A stretch of 64,000 bases of DNA, taken from the NCBI RefSeq assembly GCF_036173105.1, contig NZ_CP108053.1, forward strand, positions 7,812,001 through 7,876,000. The letters are read 5' to 3'. Each line of letters starts with the position of its first letter. Position 1 is the stretch's first letter. The notes below the pieces were generated by a model. The model was not told the DNA's origin, made no database searches, and worked only from the letters and a program-made list of their open reading frames with translations. Position numbers and translations under genes: made by a program. This stretch comes from Streptomyces sp. NBC_00287. Lineage in GTDB: Bacteria > Actinomycetota > Actinomycetes > Streptomycetales > Streptomycetaceae. This document shows, piece by piece, positions 18,208-30,913 of this stretch.

Positions 18208-19436
18208 CCCTCACCCTGAACAAGCCGCCCCGGCACACAAGGCTCACCCCGCTCCTGCACCTCCTGATCCTCACTCAACTCGCCTTCAACATCGGCTTCT
18301 TCGCCGTCCTCCCCTTCCTCGCCGAACACCTCGGACAGGCCATCGGCATGGCGGGCTGGCTCGTCGGCTTCGTACTCGGGCTGCGGACCTTCAGTCAGCA
18401 AGGGCTGTTCGTGGTCGGCGGGGCGCTCGCCGACCGGTACGGCATCCGGCCCGTCGTACTCGCCGGGTGCGTGCTGCGGATCGCCGGGTTCGCCTGGCTG
18501 GGGTTCGCCGAGGAGACCTGGGCCGTCATCGGCGCCGTACTCCTGATCGGGTTCGCCGCCGCGCTGTTCTCGCCCGCGGTGGAGTCCGAGGTCGCCCGGC
18601 AGGCCGTCGTCCATGAGGAGCAGGGCGGCTCGCGCACCCGTGTGCTCGCGCTGTTCACCGTGGCGGGACAGGCCGGTGCGTTCGTCGGGCCGCTGCTCGG
18701 TGCGCTGTTGCTGTCCGTCGACTACCGCACGGTGTGTCTGGGCGGGGCCGGGGTCTTCGTACTCGTTCTCGCCGGACACGCCTGGCTGCTGCCGCAGCAC
18801 ATACCCGGGCGTCAGCGCGTCCAAGTCCGCGGCGGAGTGGGCCCGTTGCTGCGCAACCGGCGCTTTCTCGCGCTGTGCTGTGCGTACGGCGCCTATCTGC
18901 TCGCCTACAACCAGCTCTACCTCGCGCTGCCCGCCGAGGTGGAGCGAGTGACCGGCTCGCAGGCGCCGCTCGCCTGGCTGTTCGCGCTGTCCTCGCTGCT
19001 GGTGGTGACCGCCCAACTGCCCGTGACCCGCTGGGTGGGGGAGCGGCTCACCCTGCGCCGGTCGATGGGGGCCGGGCTGCTGCTCATCGCGGCCGGATTC
19101 GCGGTCGTGGCCGCGGTGCGCTCGGCCGGGCTGCTGCCCGCGGCCGGCTTCGTCGTCCTGCTCACGCTCGGCCAGATGCTCGTGGCGCCGGCCGCGCGGG
19201 CGTGGGTGCCGGATCTCGCGGAGGACAACAGGCTCGGCCTCTACACCGGGGCGCTCTCCTCGGTGTCCGGGCTGATCGTGCTGGTCGGCAGTTCGGCGAC
19301 CGGTGCGCTGCTGAACAGCGGGCTCCCGGTGGCCGTGCCGTGGCTGGTCCTGGCCGCCGTACCGGTGGCGGCGGCGGTGCTGTTGCCGCGTCAGACGGAG
19401 ACCAGATCCTCCGCCTCCGCCTCGACGACCTCCTGA
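18204..19436 (+). CDS. MFS transporter
   Basis: 410-residue, 12-helix major facilitator protein of the drug/metabolite efflux type: FNIGFFAVLPFLAEHLG in helix 1, the loop GALADRYGIRPVVLAG (motif A) after helix 2, and GQMLVAPAARAWVPDLAEDNRLG in the second half. It is translationally coupled to the fused permease (ATGA overlap) and therefore belongs to the putative nickel-type operon, perhaps as an export or alternative uptake partner. ATG 18204 follows a GGGAG. Its last 46 bp overlap, on the opposite strand, the end of the CDP-alcohol phosphatidyltransferase gene. Confidence 0.85.
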   Translation: MTLTLNKPPRHTRLTPLLHLLILTQLAFNIGFFAVLPFLAEHLGQAIGMAGWLVGFVLGLRTFSQQGLFVVGGALADRYGIRPVVLAGCVLRIAGFAWLGFAEETWAVIGAVLLIGFAAALFSPAVESEVARQAVVHEEQGGSRTRVLALFTVAGQAGAFVGPLLGALLLSVDYRTVCLGGAGVFVLVLAGHAWLLPQHIPGRQRVQVRGGVGPLLRNRRFLALCCAYGAYLLAYNQLYLALPAEVERVTGSQAPLAWLFALSSLLVVTAQLPVTRWVGERLTLRRSMGAGLLLIAAGFAVVAAVRSAGLLPAAGFVVLLTLGQMLVAPAARAWVPDLAEDNRLGLYTGALSSVSGLIVLVGSSATGALLNSGLPVAVPWLVLAAVPVAAAVLLPRQTETRSSASASTTS

Positions 19437-20149
19437 ACCCGCGAGGTCCGCCACAGCCACAGGATGTCCCGCCCGAACGACCACACCAGCGCCGCGAGCG
19501 CCGTGGCGACGACGCCGAACTCGACGAGGTGCGGCAGCAGACCCGAGGCGGCCAGCAGCAGGAACACGCCCTGGAGCGCGGCCACCGTCTTGCGGGCCGT
19601 GCTCGGCGGCAGCGGGGCGTTCAGCCACGGCCAGAAGCGGGCGGCGGCGACAAAGCCGTAGCGCATACCGCCGATCAGCAGCACCCACGGGCCCTGCGCC
19701 ATCGAGACGTAGACGCTGAGCACCAGGATCAGAAACGCGTCGACCTCCATGTCGAAGCGGGCGCCCAGCGCGGTCGAGGTGCCGGTGCGGCGGGCGACCT
19801 TGCCGTCGACGCCGTCGAGGATCAGGGCAACCGCCGTCAGCCCGACCAGCAGTGTCAGCGGCGGCGGGCTCTGGAAGGAGTCCGCGACCAGCGCGGTGAC
19901 GCCGCCGACCAGGATGGAGCGGCCCAGGGTGACCCGGTTGGCGGGGCCGAAGGAGCGCAGCCGGGAGCGGTGCAGGGCCCGGGAGAGTACCGCCCAGGTG
20001 GCGACGGCGAAGGCGAGTCCGGTCAGCCAGCCCGCGGGCCCCATGCCGATCGCCGTGCCGAGCAGCGCCAGCACCAGGATCTGGACGCCCGCTCCGAGCG
20101 CCGTCTCCTGCTGGACCAGCCTCGCGTCGTAAGTGTTGTTCAGGGCCAC
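19391..20149 (-). CDS. CDP-alcohol phosphatidyltransferase family protein
   Basis: 252-residue integral membrane enzyme that would transfer a phosphatidyl (or other CMP-linked) group to an alcohol acceptor. The family signature D-G-x2-D/A-G-x2-A-R-x8-G-x3-D-x3-D is present as LDGVDGKVARRTG, then LGARFDMEVDAF, around residues 105-135. Flanking hydrophobic helices include GVQILVLALLGTAIG and LLVGLTAVALIL. GTG 20149 is used because GGAGG precedes it; upstream in-frame residues look non-coding. It is divergent from the dehydrogenase operon at 20257 (107-bp gap), so the two may share regulation and act on the same lipid. Acceptor unknown. Confidence 0.87.
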   Translation of the reverse strand: MALNNTYDARLVQQETALGAGVQILVLALLGTAIGMGPAGWLTGLAFAVATWAVLSRALHRSRLRSFGPANRVTLGRSILVGGVTALVADSFQSPPPLTLLVGLTAVALILDGVDGKVARRTGTSTALGARFDMEVDAFLILVLSVYVSMAQGPWVLLIGGMRYGFVAAARFWPWLNAPLPPSTARKTVAALQGVFLLLAASGLLPHLVEFGVVATALAALVWSFGRDILWLWRTSRVQEVVEAEAEDLVSV

Positions 20150-20256
20150 CGAACATCCTCCGGCCGTGTGACAGAGTCGATCAACGCCGCGTACTGTGCG
20201 CGGCCTGTGCACACCTCGGTACGTGAACTACTTCCCGATCGTTCAGGAGGATGCGG

Positions 20257-21246
20257 ATGACGCCACCCGCACGCGCGTTCTGGCTCAGCAGTCCGGGTGA
20301 AGGCGAGATCAGGGAGGTCACCCTTCCGGTCCCGTCCGAGGGCGAGGTGCTCGTCCGCGCCCTGTACTCCGGAGTGAGCCGCGGCACCGAGACGCTCGTC
20401 TTCCGCGGCGGCGTCCCCGAGAGCCAGCACGCGGCCATGCGGGCGCCGTTCCAGGAGGGCGACTTCCCGGCGCCCGTGAAGTACGGCTACCTCAGCGTCG
20501 GAGAGGTCGAGGAAGGCCCGGCGGACCTCGTCGGCAGCACGGTCTTCTGCCTCTACCCGCATCAGACGCGCTACGTCGTCCCGGCCACCGCCGTGACCCG
20601 GGTACCCGCGAATGTGCCCGCCGAACGGGCCGTCCTTGCGGGCACGGTCGAGACCGCGGTCAACGCGCTCTGGGACGCGGCGCCCCTGGTCGGCGACCGG
20701 ATCGCGGTGGTCGGCGGCGGCATGGTCGGTTGCTCGGTGGCCGCGCTTCTGGCCCGCTTCCCCGGCGTACGGGTCCAGTTGGTGGACGCCGATCCGGCGC
20801 GGGCGAAGACCGCCGAGGCGCTGGGCGTCGACTTCGCGCTGCCGCAGGACGCTCGCGGGGAGTGCGACCTCGTCGTGCACGCCAGCGCGACGGAGCAGGG
20901 CCTCGCCCGGTCACTCGAACTCCTGACCGCCGAGGGTACGGTCGTCGAACTGAGCTGGTACGGCGACCGGCAGGTCAGCCTCCCGCTCGGCGAGGCCTTC
21001 CACTCCCGGCGCCTCACCATCCGCAGCAGCCAGGTCGGCACCGTCTCCCCGTCCGGCCGCGCCGGCCGCACCTACGCCGACCGGCTCGCCCTCGCCCTCG
21101 AACTCCTCGCCGACCCGGCGCTCGACGCCCTGGTCACGGGGGAAAGCGCGTTCGAGGAGTTGCCGGAGGTGCTGCCGAGGCTCGCGTCGGGGGAGATTCC
21201 GGCCCTGTGCCACCGCGTGCGGTACGGGCAAGAGCGCCTGACCTGA
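20257..21246 (+). CDS. zinc-free MDR-type dehydrogenase (alcohol dehydrogenase superfamily)
   Basis: 329-residue medium-chain dehydrogenase/reductase. The GroES-like part has [22 protein letters not shown] and the Rossmann part [25 protein letters not shown] near 145-170 with acidic VDAD after it. The catalytic and structural zinc cysteines of classical alcohol dehydrogenases are missing, as in BchC-like relatives. Two ATGs lie six bases apart; GGAGG abuts the first, so ATG 20257 has the correct spacing. First gene of a rightward operon with the PTPS-like, GT4, methyltransferase and membrane-protein genes. Likely oxidises or reduces a polyol or sugar alcohol of that pathway; substrate unknown. 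Confidence 0.82.
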
Positions 21247-21268: not shown

Positions 21269-23054
<1,786 letters not shown>

Positions 23055-23058
<4 letters not shown>

Positions 23059-24044
23059 GGAAGACGGCGGAGACACAGGACACGGGGTGGATTCCGGCGC
23101 CGAGGGAGGCGACAGAAGTGGCCGACGATCTCGTCATTCCCGGTGCGGGACCCGCCCCCCGGCCCGGTGAGCGCCCGACGCTCAAGCTGCGCGAGCACGG
23201 GCCCGAAGACGCCCCGCGCTACGCCCCCGAGTGGCTGGAGCTGCGTGAAGGGCCCGACGGGGCCGCGCGGGCACCCGAGTTGCTCGATCCACTGCGGATC
23301 CGGCTCGCCAATCTGCCCGGCAAGGCCGATGGACTGGTCATCCACGACCTGGGCTGCGGCACCGGCTCGATGGGCCGCTGGCTGGCGCCCCGACTGGACG
23401 GCGCCCAGCACTGGATCCTGCACGACCGCGACCCCTACCTGTTGCACTTCGCCGCCGTCGCCTCTCCGCGCGCCGCCGCCGACGGCAGCCGGGTCAGCGT
23501 CGAGACCCGCCGTGGCGATATCGCCCGGCTCACCCCGGACGGCTTGTCCGGTGCCTCGCTGGTGACGGCCTCCGCGCTGCTCGACGTCCTCACCCGGGAG
23601 GAGATCGAGACCCTCGTCGCCGCCTGCACCGGCGCCGGCTGCCCGGCGCTGCTGACGCTGTCCGTCGCGGGCCGCGTGGAGTTCACCCCGTCCGACCCCC
23701 TCGACGACGAGATCGCCGAGGCGTTCAACGCCCACCAGCGGCGCACGGAGCTGCTCGGCCCGGACGCGATCACGGTGGCCTGCGAGGCGTTCTCCGCACG
23801 CGGGGCGACGGTACGGGTGCATCCGAGCCCCTGGAAGCTCGGCCCGGCCGACTCCGCGCTCACCGCACAGTGGCTGCGCGGCTGGGTCGGCGCGGCGGTG
23901 GAACAGCGCCCGGAGCTGCGCGCCCCTGCCGAACGCTATCTCCGCGAGCGCCTGGCGGCCTGCGAGGCGGGGGAGTTGCGCGTCGTGGTCCACCACAGCG
24001 ACCTCCTGGCACTGTCCCGCCCGACGGACGGGGCGACGTCATGA
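23055..24044 (+). CDS. class I SAM-dependent methyltransferase
   Basis: 329-residue Rossmann methyltransferase. The SAM-binding motif I is GLVIHDLGCGTGSMGRWLAPRL (about 95-115), followed by the acidic WILHDRDPYLLHFAA and RRGDIARLTPDGL, a motif II-like ASLVTASALLDVLTREEIETL. The N-terminal 60 residues are Pro/Glu-rich. ATG 23055 overlaps the GT4 stop and its own stop overlaps the membrane-protein start (both ATGA), placing it firmly in the coupled operon. Presumably methylates the glycosylated intermediate; O- versus N- or C-methylation cannot be told. Confidence 0.88.
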
Positions 24045-25252
24045 GCGCGGAGACGGTGGGGGCGACGGCCGGACGGGTCGGTGGGCACATGCGCGCGTCG
24101 GCGGCGCCGGGGGCCAGGCGCGCCCACGTGCACCTGCGGACCTCGGTGGCGCGGGCGGCCCGGCAGCCCACCGCCCTCTCCGTCCCCGCAGCCGCCACCG
24201 TTCCTGAAGCCCCCGCCCCATCCCCCACCTCCGCCACAGCCACCGCCCCCGATAAGTCCCGCGCCAAAAGCCTCCGCACCCACCTCGGCACAGCCGCCGG
24301 CCTCGCCATCCTCGCCGTCCTCCTCTGGCGCCTCGGCACCGGAGTCTTCCTCGACGGCCTGCGGCGCATCGACGTCACAGCCGTGGTCGCGGCTGTCGGG
24401 ATCGGGGTCGTCACCACCGTGTTCAGCGCCTGGCGCTGGCAGTTGGTGGCTCGAGGGCTGCGGATCCGGCTGCCGTTCGGCGCGGCCGTCGCCGACTATT
24501 ACCGCGCGCTGTTTCTGAACGCGGCCCTTCCCGGTGGCGTCCTGGGTGATGTGCACCGTGCGGTCCGGCATGGACGGAGTGCCGGTGATCTCGGTCGGGG
24601 AGTGCGTTCCGTCGTGCTCGAACGGGCCGCGGGGCAGTTCGTGTTGGCCGTGGTCGGAGCCGTCGTCCTGCTGACCATGCCGTCGCCCGTGCGCGACGAC
24701 GCCCGCCACCTCGCGCCGCTGCTCGCACTCGCCGCCCTCGGCGCATTCGCGGTCGTCCTCGCGCTACGGATGAGCCGAGTGCGCGCCTGGCTCGGAGGGC
24801 TGGCGTCGCTGCGCAACTGGCCCGGCGTCGCGGTGTCGTCGGTCGTCGTGCTGGCCGGACATCTCGCCACGTTCGTGCTCGCGGCCCGCGTCGCGGGCGC
24901 CAACGCCTCCGTCGCCGTACTCCTGCCGCTGGCCGTGCTCGCCCTGCTCGCGATGAGCCTGCCGCTGAACGTCGGCGGCTGGGGCCCCCGAGAGGGCGTC
25001 ACCGCCTGGGCGTTCGGCGCCGCCGGGCTCGGCGCGGGCAGCGGACTCGCGGTCGCCGTCGTGTACGGCGTCCTGTGTCTTGCCGCGAGCCTGCCCGGTG
25101 TCCTGGTGCTGGTCGTCCGCCGCTGGGCGCCCTACTCTGCGCCCAGCACGGAGAAATACGCGGCGAAGGATTCCGAAAGGCTCACCAGTAGTTCCTTCCC
25201 CTTTTCCGCCGAGCCCAGGGAAGGGCGCCCGATGACACCCGAATCGGTATAG
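24041..25252 (+). CDS. lysylphosphatidylglycerol-synthase-like integral membrane protein
   Basis: 403 residues of the UPF0104/MprF-flippase-like membrane family. A long Ala/Pro/Thr-rich cytoplasmic start (about 75 residues) is followed by roughly eight hydrophobic helices and the family signature YYRALFLNAALPGGVLGDVHRAVRHG (about 150-175), then VVLERAAGQFVLAVVGAVVLL and the LPLNVGGWGPREGVTAWAFG segment near 310. No aminoacyl-transferase domain is present, so it most resembles lipid flippases. It closes the operon, consistent with moving a glycolipid-like product. The last 121 bp run antisense over the end of the creatininase gene; the tail beyond VLVVRRWAP looks like an unconserved extension. 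Confidence 0.82.
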   Translation: MSAETVGATAGRVGGHMRASAAPGARRAHVHLRTSVARAARQPTALSVPAAATVPEAPAPSPTSATATAPDKSRAKSLRTHLGTAAGLAILAVLLWRLGTGVFLDGLRRIDVTAVVAAVGIGVVTTVFSAWRWQLVARGLRIRLPFGAAVADYYRALFLNAALPGGVLGDVHRAVRHGRSAGDLGRGVRSVVLERAAGQFVLAVVGAVVLLTMPSPVRDDARHLAPLLALAALGAFAVVLALRMSRVRAWLGGLASLRNWPGVAVSSVVVLAGHLATFVLAARVAGANASVAVLLPLAVLALLAMSLPLNVGGWGPREGVTAWAFGAAGLGAGSGLAVAVVYGVLCLAASLPGVLVLVVRRWAPYSAPSTEKYAAKDSERLTSSSFPFSAEPREGRPMTPESV

Positions 25253-25881
25253 GCGGACATACCGAGGGAGAGCAGATGACGCCGGTCGTCCGCGACGAAA
25301 TCGGAGGTCTCGTATCCGGGCCGCAGCATTTCCGGATGCGTATGCAGAAGGATGGAGGTCTCTATTTCCCCCGCGTGCATGTCGGTCAGCAGCGAGGTGG
25401 CGACCCCGGCCCGTTCCCGTGCCGATTCCCAGTCCTCCGCGGCCGGGAACAGCGCGATGCGCTCACCGCGCGCGGAGGATTCCTGAACGACGTTGCCCAG
25501 TACGTAGTTTCCGCCGTGGCCGTTGACCACCACCAGGGCCTCCACGCCCGAGCGGCGGAGCGATTCCGCTATGTCCCGTATCACCGCATGAAGGGTCACC
25601 GAGGAGATGCTGACGGTTCCCGGCCACGCCGCGTGCTCGTGCGAGCAGGAGATCGTCACCGGCGGAAGGAGGTGCACCGGGTACGCGGCGGCGATCTCCC
25701 GTGCGACCGCACAGGCGACGAGCGTATCCGTGGCGAGCGGCAGGAAGGGGCCGTGCTGTTCGAAGCTGCCGACGGGAAGGACGGCGACCTGCCGTGAGAC
25801 GCCCGCCCCGCGCGTCCGCACATCTTCCGTGGTGTCCGCCGGCACCAGACCGTGCGCCCACCGCGTTCCCGAATCACTCAT
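25132..25881 (-). CDS. creatininase-fold amidohydrolase, candidate FAPy deformylase (ArfB-like)
   Basis: 249-residue metal-dependent amidohydrolase. The metal ligands of the creatininase family are all present: E41 and H43 in [10 protein letters not shown]52 in LPLATDT, H122 in NGHGGN and E172 in AGEIETS, plus SHEH near 81. Members hydrolyse creatinine or the formamide of the pyrimidine made by FAPy-forming GTP cyclohydrolases. The second role is favoured here because its ATG (25881) lies only 38 bp from the divergent GTP cyclohydrolase II gene, whose active-site Met predicts FAPy as product. Its 3' end overlaps the preceding operon's last gene by 121 bp. Alternative: MftE-like peptidase, less likely without mycofactocin genes. 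Confidence 0.82.
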
Positions 25882-25919
25882 CTTTTCACGGCCTTTCGTC
25901 TCTGCTTAGGAACCAGATC

Positions 25920-26591
25920 ATGACAGAAAAAGTTGGCGTACTCGGAAAGAAGTCGCACAAGAAGTCCCACCAGCGCACCGGCGTGGAACGCGTTGTGAAT
26001 GCCCCGTTGCCCACGGTGTACGGGGAATTCCGCGCGGTCGGTTACATGGACCACGACCGCGGTGACGAGCAAGTGGCCCTGGTCCACGGTGACATCGGCA
26101 CCGAGGACGTCCTCACGCGGCTGCATTCGGAGTGCCTGACCGGTGACGCGTTCGGCTCCCAGCACTGCGAGTGCGGCGATCAGCTGGCCTCCGCGCTGCG
26201 CGCGGTCGTCGCCGAAGGCCGCGGTGTCGTTGTCTACTTGAGAGGGCACGAGGGCCGCGGCATCGGACTGCTCGCCAAGCTGCGTGCGATGGCCCTGCAG
26301 GCGGAGGGCCTGGACACCGTGGAGGCGAACCTCGCCCTCGGACTGCCCGTGGACGCCCGGGACTACGGCGTCGCCGCCCGGATCCTGGACGACCTCGGGG
26401 TACGCAGTGTCCGCCTGATGTCCAACAACCCGCGCAAGCGGGAGGCGTTGCTGGAGCACGGCATCACGGTCGCCGAGCAGGTCCCGCTGCTCATCGAGCC
26501 GTGCGAGAACAACATCACCTATCTGCGTACCAAGCGGGAGCGTCTGGACCATCATCTGCCCCATCTGGACGCCGTGGCGCACTGGTCCTGA
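25920..26591 (+). CDS. ribA: GTP cyclohydrolase II, formamidopyrimidine-forming type (Tyr to Met)
   Basis: 223-residue GTP cyclohydrolase II without the RibB half found in bifunctional proteins. Zinc cysteines are C72, C83 and C85 ([18 protein letters not shown]), and the GTP/phosphate loop is [16 protein letters not shown] near 175 is intact. The residue equivalent to E. coli Tyr105 is Met124 (KLRAMALQ). In a described S. coelicolor paralogue the same Met makes the enzyme stop at the N-formyl pyrimidine (FAPy) instead of releasing formate. ATG 25920 is preceded by AGGA. It leads an operon with the cyclodeaminase-like, FAD and saccharopine dehydrogenase genes and faces the creatininase-fold gene. 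Not expected to serve ordinary riboflavin synthesis alone. Confidence 0.92.
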
Positions 26592-26624: not shown

Positions 26625-27584
26625 ATGACCGACGACGTCCTCTTCCTCTCCGGCGACCAGGTGACCCGACTGCTCTCCCTGGACGCGGCCATCGCCTCCC
26701 AGCGCGCCGCCTTCGTCGCCCTCGGCTCGAACGGCGCCGATCTGCCCGGGAAGATCATGCACCCGAGCCGCTTCGACGACAGCGTCATGTTCGCGTACCT
26801 CTCCCGGCTGTCCGCGGACACCGGGGCGGTCGCGAAGATCGGCAGCGTCAACCCGGGCAATGCGGCCGCCGGGCTGCCCACCGTGCACGCCGTCGTCACC
26901 GCGCTCGACCCGGTGACGGGCCGCCTGGTCGCGGTCATGGACGGCACCGCGCTCACCACCTTGCGCACAGCGGCGGCCAGCGCAGTAGCCGTCGACGCGC
27001 TGGCCGGCCCCGACAGCGCGGACCTCGCCGTCCTGGGCTCCGGCACCCAGGCCCTCGCCCACACCCGGGCCCTCGGACGGGTGCGGGACCTGAAGTCCGT
27101 ACGACTGTGGAGCCCAACCGAGCGCAACCGCACCCGAGCGGCGCAAGCCCTGACGGCCGAACTGGGCCTCACCGTCGAGCCGGTCCGCACCGCCGAAGAG
27201 GCCGTGACCGGCGCCTCGCTCGTCGCCGCCTGTACCCTCAGCGCCACCCCGGTGGTGCGCGGCGAGTGGCTGGCGCCAGGCTGCACGGTGGTGAGCGTCG
27301 GCTCGTTCGAACCGACCCGCCGCGAGGTCGACGCGGAGGTGGTACGACGGTCCGCGGCCGTCGTCGTGGACGACCCGGAGACGGCGGCCCACCACGCGGG
27401 CCCGATCGTGGCCGCCCGGCTCGCGCCCGAGGACCTGATTCCCCTGGGCGGTGTCCTCACCGGCACCCACACCGCCCGTACCGGGCCCGGCGACATCGTC
27501 TACTACAACAGCGTCGGCCTCGGCATCCAGGACGCCGCGGCGGCCTGGGCCGTGATCGACGCGGCGCGGGAGGCGGGCCGGTGA
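26625..27584 (+). CDS. ornithine cyclodeaminase / mu-crystallin family protein
   Basis: 319-residue NAD(P)-binding protein of the OCD/mu-crystallin family, whose members cyclise ornithine or lysine with loss of ammonia or reduce cyclic imines such as piperideine-2-carboxylate. The Rossmann motif is LAVLGSGTQALAHTRAL (about 130) and the substrate region contains KIGSVNPGNAAAGLPTVHAVV and MDGTALTTLRTAAAS. ATG 26625 has GAGGGA just before it; its stop overlaps the GTG of the FAD oxidoreductase. With two saccharopine dehydrogenases downstream, a lysine/pipecolate or imine-reducing role is more likely than proline formation. Inference only. Confidence 0.85.
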   Translation: MTDDVLFLSGDQVTRLLSLDAAIASQRAAFVALGSNGADLPGKIMHPSRFDDSVMFAYLSRLSADTGAVAKIGSVNPGNAAAGLPTVHAVVTALDPVTGRLVAVMDGTALTTLRTAAASAVAVDALAGPDSADLAVLGSGTQALAHTRALGRVRDLKSVRLWSPTERNRTRAAQALTAELGLTVEPVRTAEEAVTGASLVAACTLSATPVVRGEWLAPGCTVVSVGSFEPTRREVDAEVVRRSAAVVVDDPETAAHHAGPIVAARLAPEDLIPLGGVLTGTHTARTGPGDIVYYNSVGLGIQDAAAAWAVIDAAREAGR

Positions 27585-28720
27585 AGGCGGAGGTGGTCGT
27601 CATCGGTGGCGGGGTGATGGGCGCGAGCATCGCCTGTCACCTGGCCCGCGCGGGTGTACGGGACGTCGTCCTCGTCGAACGCGACGAACTGGCCGCGGGC
27701 TCCACCTCCAAGGCGGCCGGCGGGGTGCGGGCGCAGTTCTCCGACGAGCTCAACATCCGGCTCGGCGCCCGCAGCCTGGAAGCCTTCGACCGGTTCGAGG
27801 CGGAGACCGGACAGGACATCGGGCTGCACAAGGTCGGCTATCTGTTCCTGCTGTCCACGCCCGAGGAGGTCGCCTCCTTCGAGGCGGGCGTACGGCTCCA
27901 GAACTCCCTCGGTGTGCCCAGCCGCATGCTCGACCCGGACGAGGCCCGCCGACTCTCCCCGCTGATCGTCACCGACGGCCTGCTGGCCGCCGCCTACTCA
28001 CCCGACGACGGGCACTGCACGCCCGAGTCCGTCGTCCACGGCTACGCGGCCACCGCCCGCCGGTACGGCGCGACCGTGCTGCGGCACACCGAGGTCACCG
28101 GCATCGACCTGCACGGCGACACGATCACCGGAGTGCGCACCACCAAGGGCCGGATCGCCACCGGCACGGTGATCTGCGCGGCCGGTGCCTGGTCGCGGGC
28201 CGTCGGCGCGATGGCCGACGTCGAGCTGCCGGTGGAGCCGCTGCGCCGCCAGATCGCGGTCACCGAACCGGTCCCGGACCTGCCGCCCGACCTCCCCATG
28301 ACCATCGACTTCACCACCAGCCTCTACTTCCATACCGAGGGCCCGGGACTCCTCGTCGGCATGTCCGACCCCGACGAGCGCCCCGGCTTCGACACCGGAA
28401 CCCACGACCGCTGGATCCCCCGGCTGTACGAGGCCATGGAGCGCCGCGCCCCCAGCCTCCTCGACCTGCGCCGCACCGGCGGCTGGGCGGGCCTGTACGA
28501 GCTCACCCCGGACCACAACGCCCTGATCGGCGAGGCCGCTTCCCCCTCCCGCTTCCTCTACGCGACCGGTTTCTCCGGCCACGGCTTTCTTCAGGGACCG
28601 GCCGTCGGCGAGGTCGTCCGCGACCTGTACCTCGGCCGCGTACCCTTCGTGGACGTCAGCCCCTTGAGCGCCGACCGGTTCGCGGCCGACGCCCTGCGCC
28701 CGGAGGCCAACCGCGTATGA
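27581..28720 (+). CDS. FAD-dependent amino-acid oxidoreductase (sarcosine oxidase/DadA-like)
   Basis: 379-residue DAO-fold flavoprotein. The N-terminal dinucleotide motif VVVIGGGVMGASIACHLARAG ends with the ribose-binding VLVERDELAAGSTSKAAGG. The C-terminal FAD motif is GGWAGLYELTPDHNALIGE and the catalytic-face loop ATGFSGHGFLQGPAVGE. Relatives oxidise secondary amines such as sarcosine, proline, pipecolate or saccharopine. The GTG start at 27581 overlaps the previous stop, and the stop overlaps the next ATG, so it is in the middle of a coupled operon. A cyclic or secondary amine derived from lysine is the obvious candidate substrate. Confidence 0.87.
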   Translation: MKAEVVVIGGGVMGASIACHLARAGVRDVVLVERDELAAGSTSKAAGGVRAQFSDELNIRLGARSLEAFDRFEAETGQDIGLHKVGYLFLLSTPEEVASFEAGVRLQNSLGVPSRMLDPDEARRLSPLIVTDGLLAAAYSPDDGHCTPESVVHGYAATARRYGATVLRHTEVTGIDLHGDTITGVRTTKGRIATGTVICAAGAWSRAVGAMADVELPVEPLRRQIAVTEPVPDLPPDLPMTIDFTTSLYFHTEGPGLLVGMSDPDERPGFDTGTHDRWIPRLYEAMERRAPSLLDLRRTGGWAGLYELTPDHNALIGEAASPSRFLYATGFSGHGFLQGPAVGEVVRDLYLGRVPFVDVSPLSADRFAADALRPEANRV

Positions 28721-29766
28721 CCGAACTCCATCTGTGGTTGCGACACGAGATCCGTTCCACCGAGCGCCGCACGCCGATCGTGCCCTCCGACGCACGGCGG
28801 CTGGTCGAGAACGGCGTCAAGGTGACCGTCGAGGAGTCCCCGCAGCGGATTTTCCCGGTCGAGGAGTACGAGAAGGCCGGCTGCCGGATTGCGAAGGCGG
28901 GCTCGTGGAGGTCGGCGCCGGGCGCCGCTGTCGTCGTAGGACTGAAGGAACTGCCGGATGAACCTTCGGAGTTGATCAACCGTCATGTCTTCTTCGGGCA
29001 CGCCTACAAGCAGCAGCCGGGCGCCGCCGCGCTGCTTCGGCGGTTCGCCGCCGGGGGAGGGGCGCTGTACGACGTCGAGTATCTGGTGGACGAGGACGGG
29101 CGGCGGCTTGCCGCCTTCGGGTACTGGGCCGGGTATCTCGGTGCCGCTCTGGCTGTGCTTCAGCACCAGGGGCGGCTCGCGGCGCCGCTCGTGCCGACGA
29201 CCAAGGAGGAGCTGGATGCCCGGCTCCCTGCCGAAGGGTTCACGGCGCTGGTGATCGGCGCCCTGGGCCGCAGCGGCCGGGGTGCCTGCGAGGCCTTCCG
29301 GGTGGCCGGGATCGAGCCGACCCGCTGGGACCTCGCCGAGACCCGCGAGCTGGACCGGCCGGCCCTCCTCGCGCACGACGTCATGGTCAACGCCGTCCTC
29401 GCCACCACCCCCGTCCCGCCCTTCCTCCGCGAAGAGGACCTCGACGACCCCGCCCGCCGACTGCGCACCCTCTGCGATGTCACCTGCGACGTCGGCTCGC
29501 CCCTCAATGTCCTGCCGGTCTACGACCGCACCACCGACTGGACGGCACCGGCCCGCCGACTGCGCGAGAAACCGCCCCTGGATCTCATCGCCATCGACAA
29601 TCTGCCGTCCCTGCTGCCGAGGGAGTCCAGCACCGACTTCTCGGCGGCGCTGCTGCCCCAGCTGCTGGAGTTCGGGACCGGCGGGGCGTGGGTGCGCTGT
29701 CTGGGCAGGTTCCAGCAGGCCTGCCGTGAAGTCGGTATCGAAGAAGGGGAGTTCCGCCGTGTCTGA
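28717..29766 (+). CDS. saccharopine dehydrogenase, lysine-forming type (LYS1-like)
   Basis: 349 residues of the AlaDH/PNT-type saccharopine dehydrogenase family, which interconverts saccharopine with lysine plus 2-oxoglutarate using NAD. Family segments: WLRHEIRSTERRTPIVPSDA at the start, the GLKELPDEPSELINRHVFFGHAYKQQ active-site stretch near 75-100, AAFGYWAGYLGAALAVLQH, and the Rossmann loop VIGALGRSGRGACEAFR near 170. ATG 28717 overlaps the flavoprotein stop. Streptomyces make lysine by the diaminopimelate route, so this enzyme more likely works in catabolism or in making a lysine-derived metabolite. Confidence 0.88.
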   Translation: MTELHLWLRHEIRSTERRTPIVPSDARRLVENGVKVTVEESPQRIFPVEEYEKAGCRIAKAGSWRSAPGAAVVVGLKELPDEPSELINRHVFFGHAYKQQPGAAALLRRFAAGGGALYDVEYLVDEDGRRLAAFGYWAGYLGAALAVLQHQGRLAAPLVPTTKEELDARLPAEGFTALVIGALGRSGRGACEAFRVAGIEPTRWDLAETRELDRPALLAHDVMVNAVLATTPVPPFLREEDLDDPARRLRTLCDVTCDVGSPLNVLPVYDRTTDWTAPARRLREKPPLDLIAIDNLPSLLPRESSTDFSAALLPQLLEFGTGGAWVRCLGRFQQACREVGIEEGEFRRV

Positions 29767-30913
29767 CCTGTTTCCCGCGAGCGGCACCGTCCACTGGGTC
29801 GGCGCCGGATTGTCCACCGGCAGCGGTCTGGCCCGGCTGTGCGAGACAGCGGGGCGGGTACGGCTGTGGCACCGCACCGAGGAACGCGCCGCCGAGGCCC
29901 TCTCCGTGCGGGGCTTGACCGGGCGCGCCGAGCCACGCGCGTACACCCTGGAAGCGCTGACCGCCGAACTCGCGCCCGGCGATGTCGTCGTATCGATGCT
30001 GCCCGCGCCCGAACACGCCGGGCTGCTGGCCGTCTGCGTGACCCGGCGCGCCCACTTCGCGTGTTCCAGCTATGTGTCGGACGCCGTGCTGGAGCAGGTG
30101 CCGGCGGCCACCGAGGCCGGACTTGTGGTGCTCACCGAGGCGGGCCTGGACCCGGGCATCGACCACCTCTTCGCCCACTCCCTCGTCGCCCGCGCCCGAG
30201 AGGCGATCGGCGAGGGTACGGCGGCGTCGTACAGCCTGACCTCGTACTGCGGCGGGGTCCCCGCGGAGCCCAACGACTTCCGGTACCGCTTCAGCTGGGC
30301 GCCCGCCGGAGTCCTGGGCGCCCTGCGTTCGCCCGCCCGTTACATCGAGGACGGCGCCGAGACCACCGTCGACCGCCCCTGGGAAGTGACCCGGCGACAC
30401 GTGGTCGAGGGGGAGGCCTTCGAGGTCTACCCCAACCGCGACAGTGTGCCCTTCGTCGCCCAGTACGAACTGCCGCCGGAGTGGAAGCCGCGTACCTTCG
30501 TCCGCGGCACCCTGCGTCTGGAGGGCTGGCTGCGTGCCTGGGAGCCGGTCTTCGAGGAGCTGAAGCGCGGCGACGACGAGCGGATCGCCGCCCTCGCCCA
30601 GGAGTTGGCGGCCGCCTATCCGACCACCGACGCCGACCGGGACCGGGTCGTCCTCGCCGTCTCCCTCGAAGTGAGCGGCGCGAACGGGCAGACCTGGACC
30701 GGCAGTTACCTGCTCGACCTGGTCGGCGACGAGGAGGAGAGCGCGATGGCCCGCTGTGTCTCCCGGCCCCTGGCACTGGGCGTCCGTCACATCCTGGACG
30801 GCTCCTTGCCGCCGGGGCTGAGCCGCGCGGCTGAGACGGCGGTACGGTCGTCGGAGTGGCTGCGCGAACTGGCCCTGGAGGGAGTGGAGTTCACGCTGCG
30901 CGTCAGTCGGTGA
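29759..30913 (+). CDS. saccharopine dehydrogenase, glutamate-forming type (LYS9-like)
   Basis: 384-residue saccharopine dehydrogenase/homospermidine-synthase-like protein, expected to interconvert saccharopine with aminoadipate semialdehyde plus glutamate. It has an N-terminal Rossmann segment (VHWVGAGLSTGSGLARLCE), LAPGDVVVSMLPAPEHAGL, the conserved SYVSDAVLEQVPAATEAGLVVLTEAGLDPGIDH block near 100-135 and SYCGGVPAEPNDFRYRFSWAPAG. GTG 29759 sits 8 bp inside the preceding gene, with a GGGGA site upstream. With the LYS1-like neighbour both halves of the saccharopine pathway are present. Its stop overlaps the antisense beta-lactamase-like gene by 11 bp. Confidence 0.87.
   Translation: MSDLFPASGTVHWVGAGLSTGSGLARLCETAGRVRLWHRTEERAAEALSVRGLTGRAEPRAYTLEALTAELAPGDVVVSMLPAPEHAGLLAVCVTRRAHFACSSYVSDAVLEQVPAATEAGLVVLTEAGLDPGIDHLFAHSLVARAREAIGEGTAASYSLTSYCGGVPAEPNDFRYRFSWAPAGVLGALRSPARYIEDGAETTVDRPWEVTRRHVVEGEAFEVYPNRDSVPFVAQYELPPEWKPRTFVRGTLRLEGWLRAWEPVFEELKRGDDERIAALAQELAAAYPTTDADRDRVVLAVSLEVSGANGQTWTGSYLLDLVGDEEESAMARCVSRPLALGVRHILDGSLPPGLSRAAETAVRSSEWLRELALEGVEFTLRVSR

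Follow-up and report, generated by a model that had tools for sequence, protein, structure and literature searches.

In a 64,000-nucleotide stretch of the Streptomyces sp. NBC_00287 genome (the window; positions 7,812,001–7,876,000 of a 9.64-Mb single-contig genome), a paralogue of GTP cyclohydrolase II (RibA) lacking the tyrosine at the switch position of the enzyme lies beside a creatininase-family metal hydrolase, and our comparative analysis indicated that the two proteins probably act together as a split GTP cyclohydrolase II feeding a dedicated pathway. RibA would open the imidazole ring of GTP and release pyrophosphate and, without the late-step tyrosine, would stop at the N-formyl pyrimidine FAPy. 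The hydrolase would then remove the formyl group to give formate and diaminopyrimidine ribosyl-5′-phosphate, and the diaminopyrimidine would feed a pathway comprising a protein of the 6-pyruvoyl-tetrahydropterin synthase (PTPS) fold, a dehydrogenase, a glycosyltransferase, a methyltransferase and a flippase-like protein. This two-step scheme, proposed in a preliminary description of the same DNA, was supported by the distribution of the two genes: among 99 related loci with a RibA, 66 combined a Tyr-less RibA with the hydrolase, 33 had a Tyr-type RibA and no hydrolase, and 0 were discordant.

RibA matched Pfam GTP_cyclohydro2 (PF00925) at 3e-67 and scored 229.8 bits against TIGR00505 (cut-off 205.85), which placed it among the GTP cyclohydrolases II (GCH II). 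In an alignment with E. coli GCH II (PDB 2bz0), RibA Cys72/83/85, Asp145, Arg147 and Lys173 corresponded to C54/C65/C67, D126, R128 and K154, which we take to be the zinc cysteines and the catalytic residues, and Met124 occupied the position of Tyr105, so that the earlier claim of intact zinc and phosphate motifs with a methionine in place of the tyrosine was borne out. Tyr105 of GCH II is the residue for the late deformylation half of the reaction, and replacement of its equivalent, characteristic of enzymes of the SCO6655 type, was found in the window RibA (Met124) and in 67/67 Streptomyces orthologues, all with Met. Across all 66 Tyr-less RibAs the zinc cysteines, Asp145, Arg147 and Lys173 were retained and position 124 was variable. 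Because His, Gln and Leu also occurred there, Met was rejected as the diagnostic residue; its constancy in Streptomyces stands, but the defining trait is loss of the tyrosine. SCO6655 of S. coelicolor is said to form FAPy, with Met120 as the switch residue, in work by Spoonamore and colleagues from 2006. Orthology of the window RibA with SCO6655 is very probable, judging from the match of the neighbouring PTPS-fold protein to SCO6650 and from gene order, since the numbers SCO6650 to SCO6655 would match a run of six window genes. Both further RibAs of the window genome carried Tyr, as did 51 of the 52 RibAs scored outside the set of listed cluster copies; the 52nd (L299) was itself of the cluster type and adjacent to a hydrolase.

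The hydrolase matched Pfam Creatininase (PF02633) at 3e-61 (207.3 bits; cut-off 31.3), which established its membership of this family, and its sequence matched PDB entries 3no4, 3lub, 1q3k and 1j2t. Residues E41, H43, D52, H122, H169 and E172, presumably the metal ligands, were all present, and they were invariant in the 66 cluster hydrolases scored, including that of L194, a Sciscionella marina locus discussed below. The statement that the protein keeps every creatininase-family metal ligand was correct for the wider family but not for creatininase proper, since the hydrolase reads NGHGGN, with Gly where the creatininase motif NGHYEN (1q3k) has Glu. The corresponding motif is NAHGGN in BrbF of Sinorhizobium and Brucella, a creatininase-family FAPy (AFRPP) formamidase (PMC9478397). 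Among NCBIfam equivalog models, the highest score was obtained with the peptidase MftE (TIGR03964; 131.7 bits, below the cut-off of 172), and the score against creatininase proper (TIGR04448) was 91.4 bits, below the cut-off of 235.

In the window the RibA and hydrolase genes were divergent and 38 bp apart, as first described, each with a purine-rich, ribosome-binding-like stretch before its ATG (read by eye, unscored). All Streptomyces figures refer to 150 drawn genomes, 67 of which contained RibA at an identity of at least 73%, with Met at the switch position in every case. The hydrolase (identity at least 67%) was found on the same contig, divergent and 38–272 bp from RibA, in 67/67 of these genomes; thus, the neighbourhood of the two genes is not due to chance, and both the co-occurrence survey and the conserved adjacency that the preliminary description had named as checks came out in its favour. 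The PTPS gene was present in 66 of the 67 genomes with the pair, the exception being a genome in about 1,420 contigs.

In a wider search, the PTPS marker gave a match at 1e-20 in 57 of 394 genomes of the class, representing 25 of 137 genera. A scan of GTDB contigs contributed the best 80 of 576 confirmed stretches, which were ranked against one Tyr-type PTPS and are not a random sample; these 80 included Micromonospora, Planosporangium, Amycolatopsis, Pseudonocardia, Actinomadura, Thermomonospora, Sciscionella and Actinacidiphila. Altogether 129 loci were taken, 127 of them with dehydrogenase and PTPS genes and 124 distinct by those two proteins (L174 and L186, both among the 124, share the same RibA core). 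A RibA was seen in 99 of the 124 distinct loci: the hydrolase was also in view in 65, all with a Tyr-less RibA (54 Met, 8 His, 2 Leu, 1 Gln), and 33 had a Tyr-type RibA with no hydrolase in the locus. The apparent exception L164 (Leu) was dismissed, as its hydrolase lies on the contig of RibA at a distance of about 15 kb, beyond the 20 kb retrieved for the locus. Of the 25 loci without RibA in view, 24 also lacked the hydrolase (several lie on short contigs), and the other was L194. Searches were extended to whole genomes for the hydrolase (30 + 28 genomes) and for RibA (30 + 9 genomes). The head-to-head arrangement held for 51 of the 65 loci with both genes in view, which were divergent within 300 bp, but 2 were convergent within 300 bp and in 12 the genes lay 4.8–12.1 kb apart, still in the same locus; with 14/65 arranged otherwise, head-to-head adjacency was rejected as the conserved feature.

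The six other cluster genes were all seen in 66/66 Tyr-less loci, and the 33 Tyr-type loci contained the dehydrogenase, PTPS and family-4 glycosyltransferase (GT4) genes in 33 cases, the flippase-like gene in 31, the methyltransferase gene in 28 and the CDP-alcohol transferase gene in 26. With the other genes largely shared, the same slot is filled either by a complete RibA or by the hydrolase together with a Tyr-less RibA. The deformylase assignment rests on three considerations: largely the same downstream genes are supplied by a Tyr RibA in some clusters and by a Tyr-less RibA and a metal hydrolase in others; the lost residue is the deformylation one, with the other scored active-site residues kept; and FAPy deformylases are known within the hydrolase family, namely archaeal ArfB and rhizobial BrbF. 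The simplest reading would be that the Tyr-less RibA and the hydrolase do the work of one complete RibA. Alternatively, FAPy could itself be the wanted product, its formyl group being kept in the final metabolite and the hydrolase serving some other purpose. Such a scheme would equally account for a RibA that lost only the switch tyrosine among the residues scored, and the reaction assigned to the hydrolase is itself a proposal, but in Micromonospora and other relatives largely the same genes are supplied by a Tyr-type RibA, whose expected product is deformylated, and we therefore regard retention of the formyl group as very improbable.

Phylogenetic trees were used to ask how many independent events underlie the covariation. 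A first cluster tree covered 72 of the 124 loci. A tree of the concatenated dehydrogenase, PTPS and GT4 comprised 53 rows, including 10 from the Streptomyces sample and 9 of the 24 loci with neither gene; 14 Micromonospora-type rows, L158 and L160 were left out of it, and L194 was not counted. On this tree the hydrolase-bearing clusters formed one clade (100/100), and presence of the hydrolase and loss of Tyr were identical in 52/52 rows counted, with four changes on the tree; its root was not inferred, so that gain and loss are indistinguishable. Within the hydrolase-bearing clade, three branches were without both the hydrolase and the Tyr-less RibA: the pair L131 and L163; L157, which like that pair comes from the family of Thermomonospora; and Pseudonocardia acidicola (L192), which has a Tyr-type RibA in its locus and is sister to a Pseudonocardia with His and the hydrolase. 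The single RibA in each of the genomes of L131, L163 and L157 had Tyr, and no hydrolase match there exceeded 38%; in P. acidicola all of the five RibAs carried Tyr, and hydrolase matches did not exceed 39%. RibA itself was placed on tree A (69 rows) and on tree B (57 rows), which omitted 12 long or distant rows, all of Tyr type. The Tyr-less RibAs formed one clade with the 12 rows removed (97/92) and a weakly joined pair of clades with them kept (86/44), and on the reduced tree the residue at the switch position changed at least four times. Most Tyr-type cluster RibAs belonged to another lineage, that of the window genome's own L003, indicating that the alternative first steps represent non-orthologous replacement.

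These trees also bear on a second alternative, in which the hydrolase has a later role in the pathway, cleaving an amide or peptide-like bond in some downstream intermediate, and its match with the Tyr-less RibA reflects shared descent. Origins are few: the cluster hydrolases grouped together on two trees, albeit not strongly supported (94/87 and 91/88), as the Tyr-less RibAs did once the long rows were removed; moreover, relatives of the hydrolase occur in RibA-free contexts, its best-scoring equivalog is a peptidase, and in L194 the hydrolase is present although no Tyr-less RibA is. Yet clusters with a complete RibA, or none in the locus, keep most of the other genes while lacking the cluster hydrolase. 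A late step would be needed in the Tyr-type clusters too, which disfavours a late-acting hydrolase, and the three branches that lack both genes together inside the hydrolase-bearing clade point the same way. We consider a late role unlikely.

Several observations nonetheless weigh against the deformylase assignment. All three independent pairs on well-supported branches agreed, but a sign test on three pairs (p 0.25) cannot reach significance; loss of Tyr was a single change on the reduced RibA tree, which makes for few independent events; and among the sequences compared the RibA clade linked to the hydrolase contained no member with Tyr, so that residue and RibA lineage are confounded. When the 33 Tyr-type genomes were searched whole, 29 contained nothing above 41% identity to the hydrolase, but four Micromonosporaceae genomes (L173, L186, L190 and L204) carried a 56–64% homologue elsewhere. 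Three of these homologues fell outside the cluster clade and directly followed a regulator-like gene, away from any cluster gene; the fourth was in two pieces and not securely placed on the tree. Similarly, 12 Streptomyces genomes contained a 54–62% hydrolase homologue and no such RibA, with a regulator-like gene just upstream in 12/12. In L158 and L160 the Tyr-type RibA, in a long frame, was apparently the only one of the genome and may be the housekeeping enzyme, and in L158 only three of the six cluster genes were present. A single locus contradicted the rule, that of Sciscionella marina (L194/L331), in which the cluster hydrolase is present but RibA is not; both RibAs found in the draft genome were Tyr-type. 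The L194 hydrolase occupied a 203-codon frame, about 24 residues short near the C-terminus, with the motif residues kept, and because of this shortening it may be decaying; the shortened protein offsets the four homologues in Tyr-type genomes.

Comparison with established deformylases was also unfavourable in part. The hydrolase scored 39.7 bits against the ArfB model NF033501 (cut-off 180), on which ArfB membership was rejected, and it shared 35% identity over 164 residues with BrbF, having neither the close sequence relation nor the MarR/CobW neighbourhood that mark BrbF. In the BrbF study, two distant BrbF homologues did not replace BrbF (PMC9478397). A BrbF orthologue likewise fell below the NF033501 cut-off, at 30.7 bits, so that failure to match this model is no argument against the deformylase reaction. 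On the hydrolase tree the nearest group to the cluster hydrolases was formed by the creatininases linked to the regulator-like gene, and BrbF and MftE were farther off.

As a separate observation, these regulator-linked creatininases (L014–L025 and L325–L328) lay downstream of the regulator-like gene in 12/12 Streptomyces and 4 Micromonosporaceae loci. The regulator-like protein gave weak tetratricopeptide-repeat (TPR) matches and, in our own reading, has a helix-turn-helix-like N-terminus. At the presumed metal-ligand motif of the group, L021, L022 and L025 have HGGEFEVS versus HAGEIETS.

Our analysis showed that the conserved unit is a cluster of about eight genes and not the pair (Table 1); both genes of the pair, described earlier as the unit, are real and adjacent. 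The PTPS, GT4, methyltransferase-like and flippase-like genes are joined by 4-bp overlaps, and the 3′ end of the flippase-like gene overlaps the hydrolase gene convergently. The PTPS-fold protein matched PDB 3d7j (SCO6650 of S. coelicolor) with E 4e-81; it scored 82 bits at the level of the Pfam superfamily (cut-off 22.4) and 34.3 bits, below the cut-off of 89.25, against the QueD equivalog. QueD and PTPS carry an HGH motif; the neighbour has LHGAT, invariant in the 16 homologues compared, and SCO6650 is presumably without the catalytic zinc. Four accessory genes lie directly downstream of RibA on the same strand, were found in only part of the Streptomyces loci, and resemble a separate amino-acid cassette. 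The whole cluster was present on large plasmids of two Streptomyces, S. fungicidicus p1 (L047) and a plasmid of S. globisporus (L099), so that it can probably move as a unit. L152 and L153 (genomes G020 and G084) are second, divergent PTPS copies (75–78%) in two Streptomyces genomes, where the 20-kb stretch contained none of the other cluster genes.

Table 1 Features of the RibA–hydrolase cluster in the window (window coordinates).
Feature	Position	Strand	Evidence or remark
CDP-alcohol phosphatidyltransferase, cluster edge, start codon uncertain	19391-20212	-	PF01066 5.8e-14; near cluster in relatives
Zinc-type dehydrogenase-like protein, weak BchC match	20251-21246	+	Adjoins PTPS in relatives
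PTPS homologue, counterpart of SCO6650	21356-21754	+	PF01242 4.3e-23; PDB 3d7j
GT4-family glycosyltransferase, 4-bp overlap with PTPS gene	21751-23058	+	PF00534 1.9e-28
S-adenosylmethionine (SAM) methyltransferase-like protein, 4-bp overlap with GT4 gene	23055-24044	+	PF13649 1.6e-6, 29.1 bits, cut-off 27
Flippase-like membrane protein (lysylphosphatidylglycerol (LPG) synthase transmembrane region)	24041-25252	+	PF03706 3.4e-28
Creatininase-family metal hydrolase, proposed FAPy deformylase	25132-25881	-	249 aa; Pfam PF02633; conserved residues; co-occurrence with Tyr-less RibA
Divergent intergenic region, 38 bp between start codons	25882-25919	.	Sequence
GTP cyclohydrolase II paralogue (RibA-like), Met124 for E. 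coli Tyr105	25920-26591	+	223 aa; Pfam PF00925, TIGR00505
Ornithine-cyclodeaminase/mu-crystallin, FAD oxidoreductase (DAO), AlaDh/PNT-N and saccharopine-dehydrogenase-like genes	26625-30913	+	Accessory, pathway membership uncertain

The gene content suggests a product with a pteridine-like core that would undergo glycosylation, methylation and membrane transfer; its pterin-like character, read from the PTPS fold alone, is a possibility. The composition of the cluster, with its PTPS and modifying genes, and the two additional Tyr RibAs of the genome supported the original suggestion that the pair is dedicated to something other than housekeeping riboflavin. The opposite case would be that the pair is a redundant set of riboflavin genes supplying the ordinary precursor, possibly to a separate pool, as proposed for rhizobial BrbF: the expected product is the common riboflavin precursor, and BrbF serves riboflavin synthesis (PMC9478397). 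Against this, the genome has its two other RibAs, both with Tyr, no later riboflavin gene was detected among the cluster genes scanned against profile models, and the PTPS gene accompanies the pair in nearly all Streptomyces carriers as the six other genes do in every Tyr-less locus, and we give this explanation hardly any weight.

The wider picture, which we hold with some confidence, is of a widespread actinobacterial pathway (in Streptomyces, Amycolatopsis, Actinomadura, Pseudonocardia, Micromonospora and others) that starts from GTP and has two interchangeable forms of its first step, the split form, with its recruited creatininase-family deformylase, being an evolutionarily separate route to FAPy deformylation beside ArfB and BrbF. 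Within the literature searched, the covariation of the hydrolase with loss of Tyr and the functional assignment are new; the pairing of RibA with the hydrolase was undescribed in the open-access titles and abstract beginnings listed, and the original SCO6655 and SCO6650 papers may discuss the hydrolase. The assignment gives a likely function to a conserved gene adjoining a FAPy-forming cyclohydrolase and would explain how FAPy is used, and it offers an example of an enzyme giving up half its reaction to a partner. It also pins down the entry step of a cluster that occurs in many actinobacterial genera, so that the product can be searched for.

Among known systems, SCO6655 resembles the window RibA in having Met at the switch position. 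The regulator-linked creatininases of Streptomyces and Micromonosporaceae are nearest to the cluster hydrolases (54–64% identity), but they adjoin the TPR-containing regulator-like gene, with no RibA or cluster gene near. MftE, the mycofactocin creatininase-family peptidase, resembles the hydrolase as its best-scoring equivalog model, but the window genome has its own MftE elsewhere (L043, 207.3 bits), which is separate on the tree. Three further candidates were set aside as relatives: Tistrella, with a 49% identical hydrolase and no RibA in its 24.6-kb locus; B. multivorans, with a Tyr-type RibA and no hydrolase in its 10.6-kb locus; and the 8-azaguanine and pepteridine clusters, which have GCH I-type genes and, in the accessible parts of the reports, no occurrence of "creatinin" (PMC7109123, PMC7674941, PMC5384830). 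On the Tistrella plasmid the creatininase-family gene (L044:12703-13464) is followed by an N-formylglutamate amidohydrolase-like gene, by our own reading of the translation.

The closest parallels in reaction are archaeal and rhizobial. Archaeal ArfB is a creatininase-family protein, and ArfA, a GTP cyclohydrolase III, is unrelated to RibA. The archaeal pair shares with RibA and the hydrolase the division of the GTP cyclohydrolase II reaction between two enzymes, and differs in that the hydrolase is far from the ArfB model in score. The preliminary description had presented the window pair as a bacterial, archaeal-like two-enzyme branch, and the split is supported by the covariation, but bacterial FAPy deformylation was already known from BrbF, for which 272–290 nmol/min/mg at 0.5 mM is reported (PMC9478397). 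BrbF, bacterial and of the same creatininase family, has the reaction proposed here for the hydrolase and the EQHG, HGGN and H-[AG]-G-[ED]-x-ET motifs in common with it; it differs in adjoining MarR and CobW-like genes instead of a FAPy-forming cyclohydrolase and in serving riboflavin. Its FAPy-forming partner is still unidentified according to the authors (PMC9478397), and for this rhizobial problem, in which the deformylase is known and the source of FAPy is not, our findings suggest looking for a RibA without the tyrosine.

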